DNA of 64,000 nt from Deltaproteobacteria bacterium. GTDB taxonomy: Bacteria; Desulfobacterota; Desulfobacteria; Desulfobacterales; B30-G6. The notes beneath the pieces were generated by a model. The model was not told where the DNA came from. It did not search any database and saw only the letters and a program-made list of their open reading frames with translations. The translations under genes were made by a program, and so were the position numbers. Positions within the stretch are counted from its first letter, which is position 1, and each line of letters begins with the position of its first letter. The DNA is taken from assembly GCA_022340465.1 (NCBI GenBank), contig JAJDNW010000030.1, positions 1-64,000 of the forward strand. The letters run 5' to 3'. Shown here piece by piece: positions 21,561-29,968 of the stretch.

Positions 21561-21596
21561 TTTACATTAACCTTTACATTGACATTTACATTTTGG
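21561..21596 (+). repeat. six 6-bp words (TTTACA/TTRACN) upstream of lexA
   Basis: TTTACA, TTAACC, TTTACA, TTGACA, TTTACA, TTTTGG in tandem. The word TTTACATTAAC recurs at 24405-24415 between imuB and dnaE2. TTGACA inside it (21579-21584) could also serve as a -35 element. Confidence 0.6.
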
Positions 21597-21606
21597 CGGC
21601 GTATGC

Positions 21607-21660
21607 TTGGTTTCGTTGGTTTCATTGAGTTTGTTGAGTTTATTGAGCTCGTTGGGTTCA
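21607..21660 (+). repeat. six 9-bp tandem words upstream of lexA
   Basis: TTGGTTTCG, TTGGTTTCA, TTGAGTTTG, TTGAGTTTA, TTGAGCTCG, TTGGGTTCA in perfect register, ending 25 bases before the lexA start. Degenerate, consensus TTGRGTTYR. Any lexA operator must lie in or next to it. Confidence 0.75.
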
Positions 21661-21685
21661 TTTGTGGTTTTTGCGGGAGGGGGGC

Positions 21686-22318
21686 ATGCGGATCAAGTTG
21701 ACAACCAAGCAGATGCACCTGCTCACGTACCTGCAGCAGGTCATCAACCGGGAGGGACGGTCGCCAAGCCTCCGGGAGGCCGCCGCCGATCTGGGCGTAA
21801 GCCACGCCGCCGTTGCGCAGCGTCTGAGAGCCCTGGAGGAAAAGGGGTATGTCAGACGGGAAGGGCGCTACAGCCGGACGATTCATGTGCTGAACCGCAT
21901 CCGCGAAACCGCCGGCCTCCAGCGCTGGCGCGAAATTCCGGTGGTGGGGCGGGTGACGGCCGGTTTGCCCATGTATGCCCAGGAAGAGTGGGCGGGCAGC
22001 ATCGTTCTGGACGCCGATCTCTATCGGGGACAGCTTCTCTTCGCCCTGCGCATCCAGGGGGACTCCATGCAGGGGGCGGGCATTCTGGACGGCGACCTGG
22101 CCATCTGCGAACCGCGCCAGTACGCCCGGAACGGGGAGATCGTGGTCGGGCTGATCCGCGGCGAGGAGGCGACGGTCAAACGGTTTTTTCTGCACGGGGA
22201 CTGCATCGAGCTGCGCCCGGAAAACCCGCGCTACCAACCCGTGCGCTATGCCTTCGACGAAATTCTGATCCAGGGGCGGGTTGTCGGCATACAGCGCGGG
22301 AAGAGGGGGATCCGCTGA
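21686..22318 (+). CDS. lexA: LexA family transcriptional repressor
   Basis: 210 residues from the ATG at 21686, preceded by GGGAGGGGGG; an in-frame TTG at 21662 is unlikely. The N-terminal winged HTH (about 5-60) contains SPSLREAAADLGVSHAAVAQ. The autoproteolysis elements are all present: cleavage site Ala92-Gly93 (GRVTAGLP), nucleophile Ser127 (GDSMQGAG) and Lys165 (EATVKRFF). It should repress SOS genes and self-cleave with RecA. Its stop overlaps the start of the DUF72 gene (TGATG). It is probably the dedicated regulator of the downstream cassette. I found no copy of the known LexA boxes. Confidence 0.95.
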   Translation: MRIKLTTKQMHLLTYLQQVINREGRSPSLREAAADLGVSHAAVAQRLRALEEKGYVRREGRYSRTIHVLNRIRETAGLQRWREIPVVGRVTAGLPMYAQEEWAGSIVLDADLYRGQLLFALRIQGDSMQGAGILDGDLAICEPRQYARNGEIVVGLIRGEEATVKRFFLHGDCIELRPENPRYQPVRYAFDEILIQGRVVGIQRGKRGIR

Positions 22319-23127
22319 TGTCAAGATACCCCTGCTCCATCCGGGTGGGCACGAGCGGCTACTCGTACGCGGAGTGGCTCGACGCCGGGTTTTATCCCCC
22401 GGACACGAAGCCGGGACAGATGCTTTCCGCTTATGCCCGGCGCTTTACGGTTACCGAGCTGAATTATACCTGGTATCAGATGCCCAGGGCGCCGGCGATC
22501 GAGCGGATGATCCGGCAAGTTCCGCCCGATTTTCATTTCGCCGCGAAGTTGACGCGCTACCTGACCCACGAGATCGACCCCGACCAGTGGCGGGTGCACG
22601 CGGCCCAATACCGGGACGGCATTGCCCCCCTCATACAGTCCGGACAGCTCGCCGCCGTGCTGCTGCAGTTTCCGCCTTCATTCCGGCGGACGCCCGGCAA
22701 CCGGCAATACCTGGCCGAACTTCTGGATGCGCTCGAGGGCCTGCGGACGGCCGTGGAGTTCCGGCATGCGTCCTGGGCAACCGACAGGGTTTTCGTGGGG
22801 CTGGAGCGGCGTCGAACGGCACTGGTGTCGGTGGACGCCCCCGATGTGAGAGATATTTTCCCCCGGCTGGCCATCGTCACCAGCCCGGATCTTTTTTACG
22901 TGCGCTTCCACGGACGCAATGCCCGCGGGTGGCGTTCCGGCAACATGCAGAAGCAGTTCAACTACGACTACACCGAGGCCGAACTGCGCGAATGGACGGC
23001 GGAAAAGATCGAGCAGATGGCCGGGCAGGCCCGCAGCGGACTGCTTTTTTTCAACAACCATGTCCGGGCCCAGGCGCCTAAAAATGCCCTCGCCATGCTT
23101 CGCCTGCTGGCGGCGCAGGGCTTATAA
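22318..23127 (+). CDS. DUF72 domain-containing protein
   Basis: 269 residues from the ATG at 22318, which shares one base with the lexA stop codon. DUF72 (YecE-like TIM barrel) signatures: IRVGTSGYSYAEW, LNYTWYQMP, FAAKLTRYLTH, VLLQFPPSF, AVEFRHASW and LLFFNNHVRAQAPKNAL. The family's biochemical activity is unsettled; it resembles sugar isomerase/AP-endonuclease barrels. In this position (lexA, this gene, imuB, dnaE2) it occupies the slot of imuA, so a role in damage tolerance is a reasonable inference. Confidence 0.9.
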   Translation: MSRYPCSIRVGTSGYSYAEWLDAGFYPPDTKPGQMLSAYARRFTVTELNYTWYQMPRAPAIERMIRQVPPDFHFAAKLTRYLTHEIDPDQWRVHAAQYRDGIAPLIQSGQLAAVLLQFPPSFRRTPGNRQYLAELLDALEGLRTAVEFRHASWATDRVFVGLERRRTALVSVDAPDVRDIFPRLAIVTSPDLFYVRFHGRNARGWRSGNMQKQFNYDYTEAELREWTAEKIEQMAGQARSGLLFFNNHVRAQAPKNALAMLRLLAAQGL

Positions 23128-23223
23128 TACATGTTCTTCCCAGCGGATGCAGTGTGCGGGCAACAACACGTTGATTCTAAATATCCCGGCGATTTTTTAA
23201 AGATTACGCTAAAATTTATTATT

Positions 23224-24396
23224 ATGGATCGATCCATCATTCATCTGAACGTCGCCGACTTCGCCGTGGCGGTCGAGCGGGTGGTGAACAGCGGGCTTAA
23301 AGGGCGGCCGGTCATTGTCGCCCCCGGGGGCTCGGCCCGGTCGGTGGTGTACGACATGAGCGAAGAGGCCTACCAATGCGGTGTGCACAAGCACATGCCC
23401 CTGCGTGCGGCCCGGCGCCTGTGCCGCGACGCTTTTGTTCTTCCGCCGCGGCCGGACCGCTACGAACGGGCCATGCGGGCGCTGTTCAAGCAGGCCCTGC
23501 CGTATTCGCCGCTGGTGGAAGCCGGCGATGTGGACGGGCACCTTTTCATAGACATCACCGGGACGAGCCGGCTTTTCGGACCGCCCGTCGATGTCGCCTG
23601 GCGGCTGCGCCGGCGGGTGAAGACGGACCTCGGCCTGGATCCCATCTGGTCGCTGGCGCCCAACAAGCTGGTGGCCAAGGTGGCCACGCGGGTGGTGAAG
23701 CCCACGGGCGAGTGTGTCGTGGGCGCCGGCGATGAAGCCTTTTTCCTGTCCCCCCTGCCGCTGCGGCTCGTGCCCGGCATCGAGGCGGATGACCTGCAGC
23801 GCCTGGAGGCGTTTAACTTCACCCGGGTGTCCCAGGTCGCGGCGCTGCACCTGGCACACCTGCGGATTCCCTGCGGGCGCCGCGCCCGGTTTGTGTACGA
23901 GACCGTGCGGGGGGTCGACCCCTCCCCGGTGCTGCCGGCGGGCCGGCAACGGCCGGTGGTCGCCTGCGACCACGATTTTGACGAGGACACCAATGCGCGT
24001 GCACCACTGGAGGGCGCTCTTTATCGCATGGTGGAAAGCGCCGGCGCAAACCTCCGCCGGCAGCGGCGTGCGGCCCGGCGCATCAGCGTAACGCTCGACT
24101 ACTCGGACGGCATTCGCTGCACCCGCCAATCGAAGGTGAGCCCGGCGACGGCCGGTGATCCGCTGCTTTTCGAGGCGGCCCGGCGGGCGTTGAACCTGGC
24201 CCGGTTTCGCCGGGTGCGCATCCGCCACATGCGCCTTGTGTGCGACCGGCTGGTGTTCCCGCCGGCCCAGCTGCCGCTTTTTCCGGAGGAGCGGCTCAAG
24301 CGAAAACGCCAGGACGACATCGTCGCCGCCATCGACCGCGTGCGGGGCCGTTTCGGAAAGGATGTGATTAGGGTGGGGCGTACGTTGGCGGCGTAA
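23224..24396 (+). CDS. imuB: ImuB-like Y-family polymerase homologue, catalytic site degenerate
   Basis: 390 residues from the ATG at 23224. A Y-family fold with IIHLNVADFAVAVE at the N-terminus, where the canonical first catalytic Asp is Asn9, and GDVDGHLFIDITGTSRLFG where the canonical Asp-Glu pair is Asp-Gly. This is the ImuB pattern: a non-catalytic scaffold. A clamp-binding motif QLPLF is at residues 349-353. It is shorter than many ImuB proteins. It is followed by dnaE2 after 67 bases, and likely recruits DnaE2 to the beta clamp. No good ribosome-binding site is visible. Confidence 0.85.
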   Translation: MDRSIIHLNVADFAVAVERVVNSGLKGRPVIVAPGGSARSVVYDMSEEAYQCGVHKHMPLRAARRLCRDAFVLPPRPDRYERAMRALFKQALPYSPLVEAGDVDGHLFIDITGTSRLFGPPVDVAWRLRRRVKTDLGLDPIWSLAPNKLVAKVATRVVKPTGECVVGAGDEAFFLSPLPLRLVPGIEADDLQRLEAFNFTRVSQVAALHLAHLRIPCGRRARFVYETVRGVDPSPVLPAGRQRPVVACDHDFDEDTNARAPLEGALYRMVESAGANLRRQRRAARRISVTLDYSDGIRCTRQSKVSPATAGDPLLFEAARRALNLARFRRVRIRHMRLVCDRLVFPPAQLPLFPEERLKRKRQDDIVAAIDRVRGRFGKDVIRVGRTLAA

Positions 24397-24424
24397 CGTA
24401 TCGTTTTACATTAACAACCCGGAT

Positions 24425-24455
24425 AAACCGGAAATTCCAATATCGAATATCTAAA
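24425..24455 (+). repeat. 31-bp dispersed word just upstream of dnaE2
   Basis: Starts AAACCGGAAATTCCAATATC and ends CTAAA. The same 31 bases with one change occur at 37783-37813. It occupies the place where a ribosome-binding site of dnaE2 would be expected and shows a 9-bp internal rhythm. Confidence 0.8.
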
Positions 24456-24463
24456 ACGACTGC

Positions 24464-27457
24464 ATGGTTCCCTTAAACGTCAAATCCCACTACTCCCTGA
24501 TGTGGGGCGTCAATTCCGTGAAGCGGTTGTGCCGGGCGGCCGTCCGGATGGGGTACGAGCGTCTGGCCCTGACCGACAGGAACAATCTCTACGGCATGTG
24601 GCCGTTTATCAACGCCTGCCGCCGGGAGGGTCTGCAACCCATTATCGGGGCGGAGGTGAGCGATCCCGCGACCGGGGCGCGGGCCGTCTGCCTGGTGGAG
24701 AACGATGCCGGGTATCGCAACCTGTGCCGCCTTTTGACGCGCCGGCACATGGTCGAAGCCTTCGCTCTGAAAAGCGATCTGCCGGCCATGGCCGAAGGCC
24801 TGGTGGTGCTGGCGCAGGATGCCGGCCTGCTGGCGGCATGGCACGCCGCCGGGGTTACGGTTGCCGCCGACATGCCCCGCCGGCCGCTCGCCGGCATCCA
24901 CCCGCTGCGCAGCGCGGCGCAACGTCTGGGGGTTCCCCTGGTGGCGACGCCGGGCAGCTTTTTTCTCCATCCCGGGGAGCATGCCGTCCATCGCCTGTTG
25001 CGGGCCATTGACCGCAACACCGTCCTGTCCGGCCTGCAGGCCGGGGAGTTGGCACCGCCCGATGCGTATCTTGCAGATCCGGCTGCGTATGCAGAACGTT
25101 TTGCCGTCTGCCCTGCGGCTCTGCGGGCATCCCGGGAAATAGCGGAAAGGCTGGTCTTCAGGGGGCCCGATTTCGGGTTGGTGCTGCCGCCCTGGCATGA
25201 CGAGGGCGGGCGGGGCAGCGACGCCTGCCTCAGGGAAGCGGTCTATGCCGGAGCCGTCGAACGCTATGGACAGGAGCTGCCGGAGCCCGTGGTGGAAAGG
25301 ATCGAGCACGAACTACGCATTGTTGCCGCTATGGGGTTTGCCGCCTATTTTTTGGTTGTGCAGCGTATCGTGGGAGACAGCCCGCGCACCTGCGGCAGGG
25401 GATCGGGCGCCGCCTCGATTGTTTCCTACTGCCTCGGGATCACCAATGTCTGTCCACTCAAGCACAACCTCTACTTCGAGCGCTTTTTGAACCCCGGACG
25501 GCAGGACCCGCCGGACCTGGACATCGATTTTTCCTGGGACGAGCGCGACGCCATTCTGGAGAAGGTGTTGCGAGAGCACGCGGGCCATGCGGCCATGGTT
25601 TCCAGCCACGTGTTTTTTCAGCCGCGCATGGCCCTGCGGGAAGTGGCCAAAGTTTACGGCCTGACTGCCGGGGAGATCGGCAGGATAGCCAAGCGCCTGC
25701 CCCGCCATTTTCGTGTCCGGGAAGCAGATGCCGAGCTGGCGAAAAGTCTCGAGAACCGGCCCGAGTCAGGCCATCTGGACTATCCGGACCCATGGCCGGC
25801 AGTCATACGTCTCGCCCAGCGCATCATAGGCATCCCCCGATATATATCCGTGCACCCCGGCGGGGTGGTCATCACCCCCGGGCCCATCGACGCATATGTC
25901 CCTCTGGAGCGGGCGCCCAAGGGCGTACCCGTCATCCAGTGGGAAAAGGAGGGGGCGGAAGATGCCGGCCTGGTCAAGATCGACCTTCTGGGAAACCGCA
26001 GCCTGGGGGTCATCCGCGACGCCCTGAACAATGTACGCGCGAACGGCGTCTCTTTCGATGAATCCGGCTGGGAGCCGGAGGATGATTTCGCCACCCAGGA
26101 AGCCCTGGCCAACGGGCACACCATGGGCTGCTTCTACATCGAAAGCCCGGCCATGCGGCTCCTGCAGAAAAAAGCGGGTGTGGGCGATTTCGACCACCTG
26201 GTCATCCACAGCAGCATCATCCGCCCGGCAGCCAACGAGTTTATCCGGGAATATGTCCGGCGCCTCCACGGCGGGGGGTGGGACCCGATACACCCGCTTC
26301 TGGCGGACGTGCTGGATGAGACCTTCGGCATCATGGTTTACCAGGAGGACGTGTCCAGGGCGGCCGTGTCGGTGGCCGGATTTTCGCATACCGAGGCTGA
26401 CGGGCTGCGCAAAATCATGTCCAAGAAGGATCGCGAGCACAAGTTGCGGGACTACTACGGGCGGTTTCACAAGGGTGCCGGAAAACGCGGCGTTGAAGAA
26501 AAGAAGATCCAGGAGATGTGGACGATGATGATGAGTTTCAACGGCTACTCCTTTTGCAAACCGCACAGCGCCTCCTACGCCCGCGTTTCCTTCCAGGCCG
26601 CCTATCTCAAGGTCCACTTCCCGGCGGAATTCATGGCCGCGGTCATCAGCAACCAGGGCGGCTTTTACAGCACGTTTGCCTATGTTTCCGAAGCGCGGCG
26701 ACTGGGGCTTGCCATCCGCAAACCCGATGTCAATCGGAGCGATACTGCCTGGAAGGGCGTCGGTCGCACCGTACGGGTCGGCCTGCTCTCCCTCAAAGGC
26801 CTCTCCGCGGGGTGCAGGGAACGCATCGTTGCCCGCCGGCGGGAAAAGCCGTTTGAGAGCCTGAACGACTTTTTGGAACGGGTGCGCCCGGATGAGGCCG
26901 AGGCGCGGGCCTTGATCGACGGCGGGGCGATGGACGCGTTCTGCAGCGGGGGAAACCGGGGAACGCTCATGTGGGTGCTGGCCCAATGGCTTAACGCGCG
27001 TTCGGAAAGGTCGTCGAACGGGGTGCTTTTCAGCGACGCCGGCAGCCCGCCTTCTTTGCCGGTTCTCCCGCCGCAGGACGAGCGCCGGCGTTTGCGGCGG
27101 GAATTCGCGGTGCTTGGTTTTCTGTGCGACCGCCACCCCATGACCCTTTACAGGGCTGCTCTCGCAAGACTGCGGTCCGTAAAGGCTGTGCACCTGGGGC
27201 GGTACGTGGGCCGGCGCGTCTGCTTTGCCGGCTGGCTCATCACCGGGAAAAAGGTGCAGACCAAGCACGGGGACGCCATGGAGTTCTTGACCTTCGAAGA
27301 CGAAGGCGGCATTGTGGAAACGACGTTTTTCCCCCGGGCATACCGCCGCTTTTGCCGCATGGTGGAACGCAACCGGCCGTACATCCTTTACGGCAGGGTT
27401 GAGGAAGATTGGGGGGCGGTAACACTGACCGTGGACAGAGTGGAAACACTGCAATGA
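24464..27457 (+). CDS. dnaE2: DnaE2-type error-prone DNA polymerase III alpha subunit
   Basis: 997 residues, slightly short for the family. PHP domain (1-~200), polymerase core with PDLDIDF (catalytic Asp residues, about 347-353), GRGSGAASIVSYCLGI, and HPGGVVITPG, helix-hairpin-helix region and a C-terminal OB fold (from about 905: VCFAGWLITGKKVQTKHG). The PHP metal ligands are lost: LNVKSHYS in place of HxHSxYS and TDRN in place of TDHN, so proofreading by PHP is unlikely. It should perform translesion synthesis with ImuB. No ribosome-binding site is visible; a 31-bp repeat lies upstream. Confidence 0.92.
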   Translation: MVPLNVKSHYSLMWGVNSVKRLCRAAVRMGYERLALTDRNNLYGMWPFINACRREGLQPIIGAEVSDPATGARAVCLVENDAGYRNLCRLLTRRHMVEAFALKSDLPAMAEGLVVLAQDAGLLAAWHAAGVTVAADMPRRPLAGIHPLRSAAQRLGVPLVATPGSFFLHPGEHAVHRLLRAIDRNTVLSGLQAGELAPPDAYLADPAAYAERFAVCPAALRASREIAERLVFRGPDFGLVLPPWHDEGGRGSDACLREAVYAGAVERYGQELPEPVVERIEHELRIVAAMGFAAYFLVVQRIVGDSPRTCGRGSGAASIVSYCLGITNVCPLKHNLYFERFLNPGRQDPPDLDIDFSWDERDAILEKVLREHAGHAAMVSSHVFFQPRMALREVAKVYGLTAGEIGRIAKRLPRHFRVREADAELAKSLENRPESGHLDYPDPWPAVIRLAQRIIGIPRYISVHPGGVVITPGPIDAYVPLERAPKGVPVIQWEKEGAEDAGLVKIDLLGNRSLGVIRDALNNVRANGVSFDESGWEPEDDFATQEALANGHTMGCFYIESPAMRLLQKKAGVGDFDHLVIHSSIIRPAANEFIREYVRRLHGGGWDPIHPLLADVLDETFGIMVYQEDVSRAAVSVAGFSHTEADGLRKIMSKKDREHKLRDYYGRFHKGAGKRGVEEKKIQEMWTMMMSFNGYSFCKPHSASYARVSFQAAYLKVHFPAEFMAAVISNQGGFYSTFAYVSEARRLGLAIRKPDVNRSDTAWKGVGRTVRVGLLSLKGLSAGCRERIVARRREKPFESLNDFLERVRPDEAEARALIDGGAMDAFCSGGNRGTLMWVLAQWLNARSERSSNGVLFSDAGSPPSLPVLPPQDERRRLRREFAVLGFLCDRHPMTLYRAALARLRSVKAVHLGRYVGRRVCFAGWLITGKKVQTKHGDAMEFLTFEDEGGIVETTFFPRAYRRFCRMVERNRPYILYGRVEEDWGAVTLTVDRVETLQ

Positions 27458-27459
27458 TG

Positions 27460-27501
27460 GACATTGAACATCAAACGTCCAACATCCAACGTCGAACATC
27501 T
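27460..27501 (+). repeat. six 7-bp tandem words (AACRTCN)
   Basis: GACATTG, AACATCA, AACGTCC, AACATCC, AACGTCG, AACATCT in register, starting three bases after the dnaE2 stop codon. This is one of several 7-bp-period spacers in this window. Confidence 0.8.
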
Positions 27502-27524
27502 GACAGTTTTGGTTGTCATAACGC

Positions 27525-27561
27525 GCGTCAGCGCAAATATCGGGCGAAGCCCTAATGACGC
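27525..27561. terminator. branched hairpin between dnaE2 and helicase gene
   Basis: Outer stem GCGTCA/TGACGC (27525-27530, 27556-27561) encloses the tight hairpin GGGC-GAA-GCCC (27542-27552). A further GTGC-AAA-GCAC hairpin follows at 27574. There is no T tract, so its role could be RNA processing rather than termination. Confidence 0.35.
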
Positions 27562-27586
27562 TGAGTAAATGACGTGCAAAGCACAA

Positions 27587-29968
27587 ATGGCATCAAGTTA
27601 TATGGAAATTTTAGCAGAACCCAATACGTCTCCGGAAAGGCATTTCAGTGTTTCCGTGCGTTTCCTGGTGGAAACGTTTGTCCGCGGCCAGGATCTGTCC
27701 GGCACCTTCGCCGCTTCCGACCGGGCGGTGGCGGGCACCCGCGCCCACCAGCGCATCCAGGATATGAGGCCCGCATCGTACCAGCGTGAGGTGGCCATCG
27801 CGCACACCGCCGAAGTGCGCGGCCGCACCATCGAGATCAGCGGCAGGATAGACGGCATCCTTCACCAGGAGAACGGGGATGTTCTGGAGGAGATCAAAAG
27901 CACGGCGCGCGATCTTGCGGTGCATCAAGAACGGCAGAATCCCCGGCACTGGGCTCAGCTCAAGGTATATGCCTACATGCACGCCGTACGCCACAACCTG
28001 AGCCGTGTGGCTACCTGTCTGACCTACGTCCGGCTCGGTTCGGATGCCGTCATTGAAATCCGCCGGGATTTCGAATTCGATGAGCTGGCAAGCTTCTTCG
28101 ATGCGCTCCTCTCCCTCTTCCTGGATCGGGTCGATGCGGACAGCGCATGGCGGTCTCTACGCGGGCAGTCCATCCAGGCGCTTGACTTCCCCTTTGCCGC
28201 CTATCGCCGGGGGCAGCGGCGGATGGCTGTCGAGATTTTTCGCGCCGTCCGGGAAAAACGGCAGTTGCTGGTGCAGGCCCCCACGGGGATCGGCAAGACT
28301 ATGGCGGCGGTTTTTCCGGCCATCAAGGCCCTGGGCGAGGGGCTTGTCGACAGGATTTTTTTCCTGGCGGCACGGACTACCGGCAAACAGGTGGCCGAGG
28401 AAACGGTTGCCGTTCTTCATGGCCGGGGGTTGCGCTTCAGGTGTTTGACGCTGACCGCCAAGGAAAAAATCTGCTTCAATCCCGGGGCGGCCTGCAACGG
28501 CGAGGAGTGCGAATTTGCCAGGGGCTATTACGACCGTATCGACGATGCCCTGGCTTACGCCCTCGGGAATGATCTGCTGAACCGGCACCTTGTGGAAACC
28601 GTGGCCCGGCAGCACCGGGTCTGCCCCTTCGAGTTCTCCCTGGACCTGGCGCTGCATGCCGACGGCATTGTCTGCGACTACAACTACGCTTTCGATCCTC
28701 AGTCCTACCTGCGGCGCTTCTTTCAGACGGTGGAGGAGGCCTACCTTTTTCTGGTGGACGAGGCGCACAACCTGGTGGAACGGTCCAGGGACATGTTCTC
28801 GGCCCGTATCGAACGGCGGCTGTTTGAGGATACGGCCAGGGAGACAGCCGGGGCCCTGCCGCAGCTCGAGGCGCTCATAGGGGCCGTGGTTGAATGGATG
28901 GACGCCTTCAGGGCGGCCCATGCCGAACTGGATTTCCTTTCCACCCGGGAGGCGCCGGAAGACCTCCTGGCCGTTTTGCGGCGACTCGTCAGGGAGAGCG
29001 ACGCCTGGCTGTCGCTCGACAGAAAGGCGCTTTTTCGCGACGCGCTTCTCGAGCTGCATTTCAGCGTGTCCCGGTTCCTGAAAGTGTCCGAGATGTTCGA
29101 CGAACGCTATGCCGCCTGCTATGACATGTCCGGTCGAAACTTCCTCCTCAATTTTTTCTGCATCGACCCCTCTTTATACCTGCAGCGGACATTGGCGGCG
29201 ATAAGTGCCACGATTTTCTTTTCGGCCACGCTGACGCCCACGGACTATTTCAAGGAAATTTTCGGTGGTGGGGAGAAGACCGGGGAGTTGATCCTGCCGT
29301 CGCCGTTTCCAAAAAAAAACTTTTCGCTTTCCGTTGCCGGGGGGATCTCTACCGTGTTCGCGCAGCGTGACGTGACCAGGCGGAAAGTTGCCGGAACGAT
29401 CAGCGCCTTCGTCAATGCCAAGCGGGGCAACTACCTTGTCTTCTTCCCGTCCTACGACTACCTGGTGAAGGTGACTGCCGAATTTATCCCGGCCAATCCT
29501 GAAATCAGGGTTCTTTGCCAGGCGCCGGGCATGAGCGAGCACGAGCGGGAAGACTTCTTGAGGCAGTTTTCTTTTGAAAACCGGGAAACATGCGTTGGAT
29601 TCGCCGTATTGGGGGGGGCCTTCGGTGAAGGAATCGACCTTGTGGGCGACCGCCTGGCCGGGGCCGTGGTGGTCAGCGTGGGGATGCCTCCGCCCACGCC
29701 CGAAAGGGAACTGATTCGCGAATACTTCGATATGCACCGCCAGGCCGGCTGGGAATTCGCCTATGTTTTTCCGGGATTCAACCGGGTGTTGCAGGCCGCG
29801 GGCAGGGTCATTCGCACGGAAGTGGACAAAGGCGCGGTGCTTTTGATCGACAAGCGGTATGCAAGTCGGCGATACAGGTCCATGTTTCCTTTTGAATGGC
29901 GGCCGTCGTATATAACCGGCCGAAAAGACCTGGCAAGGGTGTTGGGCGCATTCTGGGATGAGCCTTAG
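27587..29968 (+). CDS. XPD/DinG-like DNA helicase fused to N-terminal PD-(D/E)XK nuclease
   Basis: About 793 residues from the ATG at 27587 (27569 and 27602 are alternatives; none has a ribosome-binding site). Residue numbers below use the 27569 start. A RecB/Cas4-type nuclease motif at the N-terminus: Asp95 (GRIDG), Glu108-x-Lys110 (LEEIKST), then Gln130-x3-Tyr. A DEAD_2/XPD helicase follows: Walker A APTGIGKTM, four Cys residues for a 4Fe-4S cluster (KICFNPG, AACNGEEC, HRVCPFE), DEAH (VDEAHN) and a C-terminal helicase domain. Likely unwinds and cuts DNA at lesions. It lies downstream of dnaE2, possibly in the same LexA unit. Confidence 0.9.
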   Translation: MASSYMEILAEPNTSPERHFSVSVRFLVETFVRGQDLSGTFAASDRAVAGTRAHQRIQDMRPASYQREVAIAHTAEVRGRTIEISGRIDGILHQENGDVLEEIKSTARDLAVHQERQNPRHWAQLKVYAYMHAVRHNLSRVATCLTYVRLGSDAVIEIRRDFEFDELASFFDALLSLFLDRVDADSAWRSLRGQSIQALDFPFAAYRRGQRRMAVEIFRAVREKRQLLVQAPTGIGKTMAAVFPAIKALGEGLVDRIFFLAARTTGKQVAEETVAVLHGRGLRFRCLTLTAKEKICFNPGAACNGEECEFARGYYDRIDDALAYALGNDLLNRHLVETVARQHRVCPFEFSLDLALHADGIVCDYNYAFDPQSYLRRFFQTVEEAYLFLVDEAHNLVERSRDMFSARIERRLFEDTARETAGALPQLEALIGAVVEWMDAFRAAHAELDFLSTREAPEDLLAVLRRLVRESDAWLSLDRKALFRDALLELHFSVSRFLKVSEMFDERYAACYDMSGRNFLLNFFCIDPSLYLQRTLAAISATIFFSATLTPTDYFKEIFGGGEKTGELILPSPFPKKNFSLSVAGGISTVFAQRDVTRRKVAGTISAFVNAKRGNYLVFFPSYDYLVKVTAEFIPANPEIRVLCQAPGMSEHEREDFLRQFSFENRETCVGFAVLGGAFGEGIDLVGDRLAGAVVVSVGMPPPTPERELIREYFDMHRQAGWEFAYVFPGFNRVLQAAGRVIRTEVDKGAVLLIDKRYASRRYRSMFPFEWRPSYITGRKDLARVLGAFWDEP

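Follow-up and report, generated by a model that had tools for sequence, protein, structure and literature searches.

Here, we describe the gene cassette lexA-DUF72-polY-dnaE2, where polY denotes the gene of an inactive Y-family polymerase (iPolY), in a Deltaproteobacteria bacterium of the Desulfobacterales (Desulfobacterota, B30-G6). The cassette is located in the first 64,000 nt of contig JAJDNW010000030.1 (assembly GCA_022340465.1), the stretch that was analysed as a whole and is called the window in the following. Very probably, these genes constitute an SOS mutasome operon that works without ImuA. We further hold with good confidence that the operon is autoregulated by LexA, that it encodes a translesion synthesis (TLS) mutasome of the DnaE2B-iPolY-RecA type, and that DUF72 is a fixed component of it. 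A functional part for DUF72 in the SOS mutasome response is likely as well. The core type itself has already been published. The near-constant membership of DUF72, the gene order lexA-dnaE2-DUF72 found in one lineage, and the putative TTTACATTGACATTTACATT repeat operator/promoter are additions to it.

In the window, the four cassette genes are followed by a helicase-nuclease gene, all five being consecutive on the plus strand. The features are as follows:

21561..21594, plus strand: putative LexA operator, repeats with a 6-bp period (TTTACA TTAACC TTTACA TTGACA TTTACA TTTT)
21579..21607, plus strand: sigma-70-like promoter TTGACA-17-TATGCT inside the operator repeats (10 of 12)
21686..22318, plus strand: lexA, with cleavage site A92-G93 and catalytic S127 and K165
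22318..23127, plus strand: DUF72 TIM-barrel protein, the sole DUF72 found in the genome
23224..24396, plus strand: iPolY, with N9 at the position of DinB D8 and G/H at that of E104
24268..24282, plus strand: beta-clamp-binding-like motif QLPLF, iPolY residues 349-353
24295..24378, plus strand: RecA-N-terminus-like tail of iPolY, residues 358-385 (...RFGKDVIRVG)
24464..27457, plus strand: dnaE2 (error-prone DnaE), catalytic Asp D351, D353 and D507 retained
27569..29968, plus strand: EndoDinG-type PD-(D/E)XK nuclease and XPD/DinG-like helicase, a genus-specific neighbour
27728..28060, plus strand: Cas4/RecB-like nuclease domain of the helicase (H60, E74, D95, E108, K110)

All five open reading frames (ORFs) proposed in the initial annotation are present on this strand, and their family assignments hold: LexA (TIGR00498, 9.8e-49), DUF72 (PF01904, 1e-59), the IMS domain of the Y-family protein (PF00817, 1.5e-33), DnaE (PF07733, 5.7e-66), and Helicase_C_2 (1.2e-40) together with a Cas4-like nuclease region. 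The reported overlap of lexA and DUF72 is the single base 22318, which is common to both ORFs. Gaps of 96 bp, 67 bp and 111 bp separate DUF72 from the Y-family gene, the latter from dnaE2, and dnaE2 from the helicase-nuclease gene, respectively. Tandem repeats of low complexity (about 6-9 bp; e.g., GAACATCAAACGTCCAACATCCAACGTCGAACATC) were seen in intergenic gaps of the window (21612-21676 and 27456-27510); similar ones occur in the upstream region of recA (L230), and they seem to recur in this genome.

DnaE2 systems that combine an inactive PolY with RecA and do without ImuA were proposed in 2019 (PMC6511836) and classed in 2026 as DnaE2B-iPolY-RecA (PMC12926913). This type was described as lacking ImuA altogether and as probably using RecA (PMC12926913). 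Judged by its gene content and protein features, the core of the window fits this type. With the gbDinB2-like and scDinB2-like groups it shares DnaE2 and a catalytically dead Y-family protein with a RecA-N-terminus-like motif, the lack of both ImuA and ImuB-C, and an operon that often includes lexA. In contrast, a constant DUF72 is not mentioned in the main text of PMC12926913 or PMC6511836, nor is a DUF72-bearing Desulfobacterota operon or the repeat operator described there.

The evidence from the Y-family protein was obtained with 79 sequences. Of the three acidic residues that bind metal in DinB, two are gone: 74 of the 79 have Asn at position 9, and Gly or His stands at the Glu104 position. 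The clamp motif QxxLF is almost invariant (Q349 99%, L352 96%, F353 96%), and so are the glycines of an FG...G pattern in the tail (G378 100%, G385 92%). Compared with the N-terminus of RecA from the same genome, this tail beats shuffled sequences with p 0.015 in the window and with p<=0.05 in 64 of 79 cases, which is of modest statistical strength. The ImuB-C domain (DUF6504) was searched for and is missing from iPolY as well as from the whole genome, whose assembly is about 95% complete. Since the metal-binding acids are lost and ImuB-C is absent from protein and genome, the gene should read iPolY. Thus, of the lexA, imuB and dnaE2 genes that the initial annotation regarded as clear, lexA and dnaE2 stand while imuB does not. 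The catalytic residues D351, D353 and D507 of DnaE2 are at least 95% conserved. The noted absence of imuA was confirmed insofar as the narrow ImuA model NF033429 matches, in this about 95% complete assembly, solely recA itself and below the cut-off.

The four-gene order is not restricted to the window. A protein scan of named genomes with DnaE2 yielded 23 close loci. Their recorded taxon is Desulfobacterota or Proteobacteria in almost every case and Fibrobacter in one; the next DnaE2s beyond Desulfobacterota are mostly from Bacteroidota. Nearly all of the 23 loci with enough flank carry lexA-DUF72-polY-dnaE2. Within a class sample of 291 genomes, 110 have a polY ortholog. DUF72 is found at most 6 kb upstream of polY in 87 out of 112 polY places and downstream in none, compared with a chance expectation of approximately 0.003 per genome. 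The suggestion that DUF72 is an added part is thereby borne out, as it is real and widely conserved directly upstream of polY. Of about 80 polY loci that were fetched, 59 show the complete order lexA-DUF72-polY-dnaE2; they come from 22 or more family-level groups within the class and from two beyond it. Named isolates (Desulfogranum, with an insertion, Desulforhopalus and Desulfopila) and complete chromosomes are among the carriers. Therefore, the arrangement is not a peculiarity of one genome; the fifth gene, in contrast, adjoins dnaE2 only in the three genomes of the window's genus.

A second order, lexA-dnaE2(split)-DUF72, occurs in another lineage of the class (f40/f51) with a divergent DUF72 and no polY. 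Such loci without a Y-family gene are L292, L293, L294 (2027-6783), L296 and L301, and their DUF72 is distantly related to that of the cassette. In an unrooted tree, the DUF72s of the cassette, those of f40/f51 and the stand-alone ones fall into three separate clades; because the tree is unrooted, the clades alone do not prove an independent recruitment. Two further observations concern the surroundings of dnaE2. L010 and L009 harbour close dnaE2 relatives (64-65% identity); neither lexA nor DUF72 nor polY was detected in their flanks (10 kb on each side for L010). In the Desulfobulbales-type loci L012-L024, dnaE2 is often followed on the same strand by a long, signalling-like protein (longest ORF 1052 aa) and also often by an AMP-ligase-like gene.

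LexA, the sole full copy found in the assembly, has a conserved cleavage site A92-G93 and a conserved S127/K165 dyad, so the residues for self-cleavage are intact. Upstream of lexA, a 19-mer putative operator core, TTTACATTGACATTTACAT, is exactly present in 20 of 69 loci and with at most three mismatches in 36 of 69, while shuffled controls never had fewer than six mismatches. The search used 250 bp upstream of lexA. L008 scored poorly only because its operator is located beyond this range; L089, apparently the same contig (14,721 bases), has an exact copy. The 19-mer contains the -35 box of the best promoter-like site in the region. In its stead, 13 Desulfobulbales-type loci have the same half-site in the form of the palindrome AATGT-N6-ACATT. 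Reading the upstream repeats as mere low-complexity sequence was rejected, because different families share the motif. When up to three mismatches are allowed, the 19-mer is confined to the lexA operon in the window's genome and was not found near recA or the helicase. This points to a predicted LexA response of a single operon at the level of three mismatches, with a weaker or shorter operator being possible elsewhere. A precedent is the autoregulated lexA operon of Geobacter sulfurreducens, which also includes a Y-family gene and where, according to Jara et al. 2003 as cited in PMC6511836, LexA does not bind the recA promoter. There, however, the order is lexA-imuB-C-active PolY and the motif GGTT-N10-AACC (PMC8565304).

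DUF72 proteins occur in bacteria and archaea and have solved structures; to our knowledge, no function has been assigned to them to date. Active sites of TIM barrels lie at the C-terminal ends of the strands. The structure model of the window protein (predicted local distance difference test, pLDDT, 90) is a TIM barrel in close match to the solved DUF72 proteins 1VPQ and 1VPY. Its conserved polar residues E47, K77, Q117, E147, D173, H198 and N246 are located at just these ends, many of them being common to 1VPQ, and the presumed active-site residues of the family are intact. Weak fold neighbours are EndoIV (5zhz, template modelling (TM) score 0.51) and UVDE (2j6v, TM 0.42). Since sugar epimerases score about equally well, a nuclease function is a lead and not a result. 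A DNA-processing role is plausible, and a direct action of DUF72 on DNA may be entertained tentatively. In the literature searched, no main text was found that joins DUF72 with DnaE2 or ImuB. DUF72 and lexA are enriched near PolB2 mutasome operons (PMC11791011, 2025), a likeness in the neighbourhood of a TLS polymerase operon that involves another polymerase family and other partners.

For the helicase-nuclease behind dnaE2, the annotated fusion of an XPD-like helicase with a PD-(D/E)XK nuclease was confirmed. Homology to the solved protein 9kqh (E 7e-149) spans almost the whole protein, which corresponds to the published definition of EndoDinG (PMC11981726, 2025), i.e., an N-terminal PD-(D/E)XK nuclease with H60, E74, D95, E108 and K110, the iron-sulfur cysteines C302, C309, C314 and C352, and a DinG/XPD helicase. 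These nuclease residues and the four cysteines are conserved in 31 relatives. Unlike the published protein, the window copy adjoins an SOS mutasome operon. This adjacency is limited to the window's genus g1 (L008, L088 and the window), and on these grounds the helicase was rejected as a core part of the cassette. EndoDinG is encoded in 71 of the 291 genomes, mostly as a separate gene away from the cassette.

What remains to be weighed is how closely the additional genes belong to the core. In the initial annotation, all five genes belong to a single functional system to which the helicase-nuclease is integral, a view that we consider unlikely. In each of the three genomes seen from the genus, the helicase gene adjoins dnaE2 in the same orientation, and the 111-bp gap of the window contains no promoter- or terminator-like site. 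Hence, a promoter of its own, as had been considered, was not found there, and the helicase may be co-transcribed by read-through. Helicase and polY also co-occur above chance (48 genomes with both, odds ratio 5.3, p 7e-9 for the 291 genomes, ignoring kinship), and in six other genomes (L222/L223, L224/L225, L226/L227, L228/L229, G062 and G077) 18-32 kb lie between the cassette and a convergent helicase gene downstream on the other strand. This loose linkage looks like an old inherited gene neighbourhood, though. Outside the genus the two are never adjacent, 62 genomes have only polY and 23 only the helicase, and the operator was not found near the latter. A canonical lexA-imuA-imuB-dnaE2 cassette in which DUF72 replaces imuA is very improbable. 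It shares with the window an operon linked to LexA in which DnaE2 is accompanied by a dead Y-family protein, and DUF72 sits between lexA and the Y-family gene in the usual position of imuA; the earlier statement that DUF72 takes the place of imuA holds for position only. The window differs by the lack of ImuA and of ImuB-C in the Y-family protein, DUF72 is a TIM barrel and not a RecA fold, DnaE2s outside the ImuA-ImuB group have been described from genomes without ImuA (PMC12926913), and sister cassettes have neither ImuA nor DUF72. As the core fits the ImuA-less DnaE2B-iPolY-RecA type, DUF72 has not replaced ImuA. Chance neighbours or an artefact in one metagenome bin could be suspected from the draft assembly of 162 contigs, but the recurrence of the four-gene unit in the isolates and complete chromosomes named above refutes this, and we attach practically no probability to it.

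A more serious alternative, to which we give a little less than an even chance, is that DUF72 is a separate and merely co-regulated damage-response enzyme, e.g., similar to endonucleases for apurinic/apyrimidinic (AP) or ultraviolet (UV) lesions, that repairs or trims damage on its own, apart from the DnaE2 complex. Its weak fold neighbours include endonuclease IV and UVDE, and two sets of loci count for this alternative and against DUF72 as a fixed component. lexA-polY-dnaE2 occurs without DUF72 in L171, L172, L192, L198, L308 and L309, so DUF72 is not strictly needed, being missing from some otherwise complete cassettes. Conversely, lexA-DUF72 units at L299, L300 and L302 have no polY or dnaE2 detected behind them, and DUF72 may thus follow LexA and not the polymerase. 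Weighing likewise against the proposed operon, some members have a RecA-N-terminus-like tail that matches weakly, part of the conservation of the operator repeat is that of a -35 box, and it is we who infer that the TTTACATTGACATTTACATT repeat is LexA's own operator. On the other side, DUF72 joins DnaE2-type operons in two orders and also polB2 operons (PMC11791011), a pattern suggestive of a link with TLS.

In the LexA-autoregulated DnaE2B-iPolY-RecA operon that we favour, DNA damage would lead to RecA filaments and to self-cleavage of LexA at A92-G93, upon which the single promoter would fire. iPolY would link DnaE2 with both the sliding clamp and RecA, and DnaE2 would copy past the lesion. 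DUF72, a TIM barrel with a conserved catalytic face, would process or protect the damaged DNA or a product derived from it. EndoDinG would be a later addition after dnaE2 in the window's genus, where transcription from the lexA promoter probably continues into it. It is a more speculative thought, and rather doubtful at present, that DUF72 is an unrecognised TLS partner enzyme of bacteria and archaea, recruited by error-prone polymerases of unrelated families (DnaE2 in two orders, PolB2) and having the lesion or the stalled primer terminus as its target, with a LexA response that possibly shrank to one operon in these Desulfobacterota. From a biological point of view, the near-constant place of DUF72 in an SOS translesion operon offers a concrete, testable hypothesis for the function of this family, and the operator motif provides a way to test whether LexA of these sulfate reducers controls one operon only.

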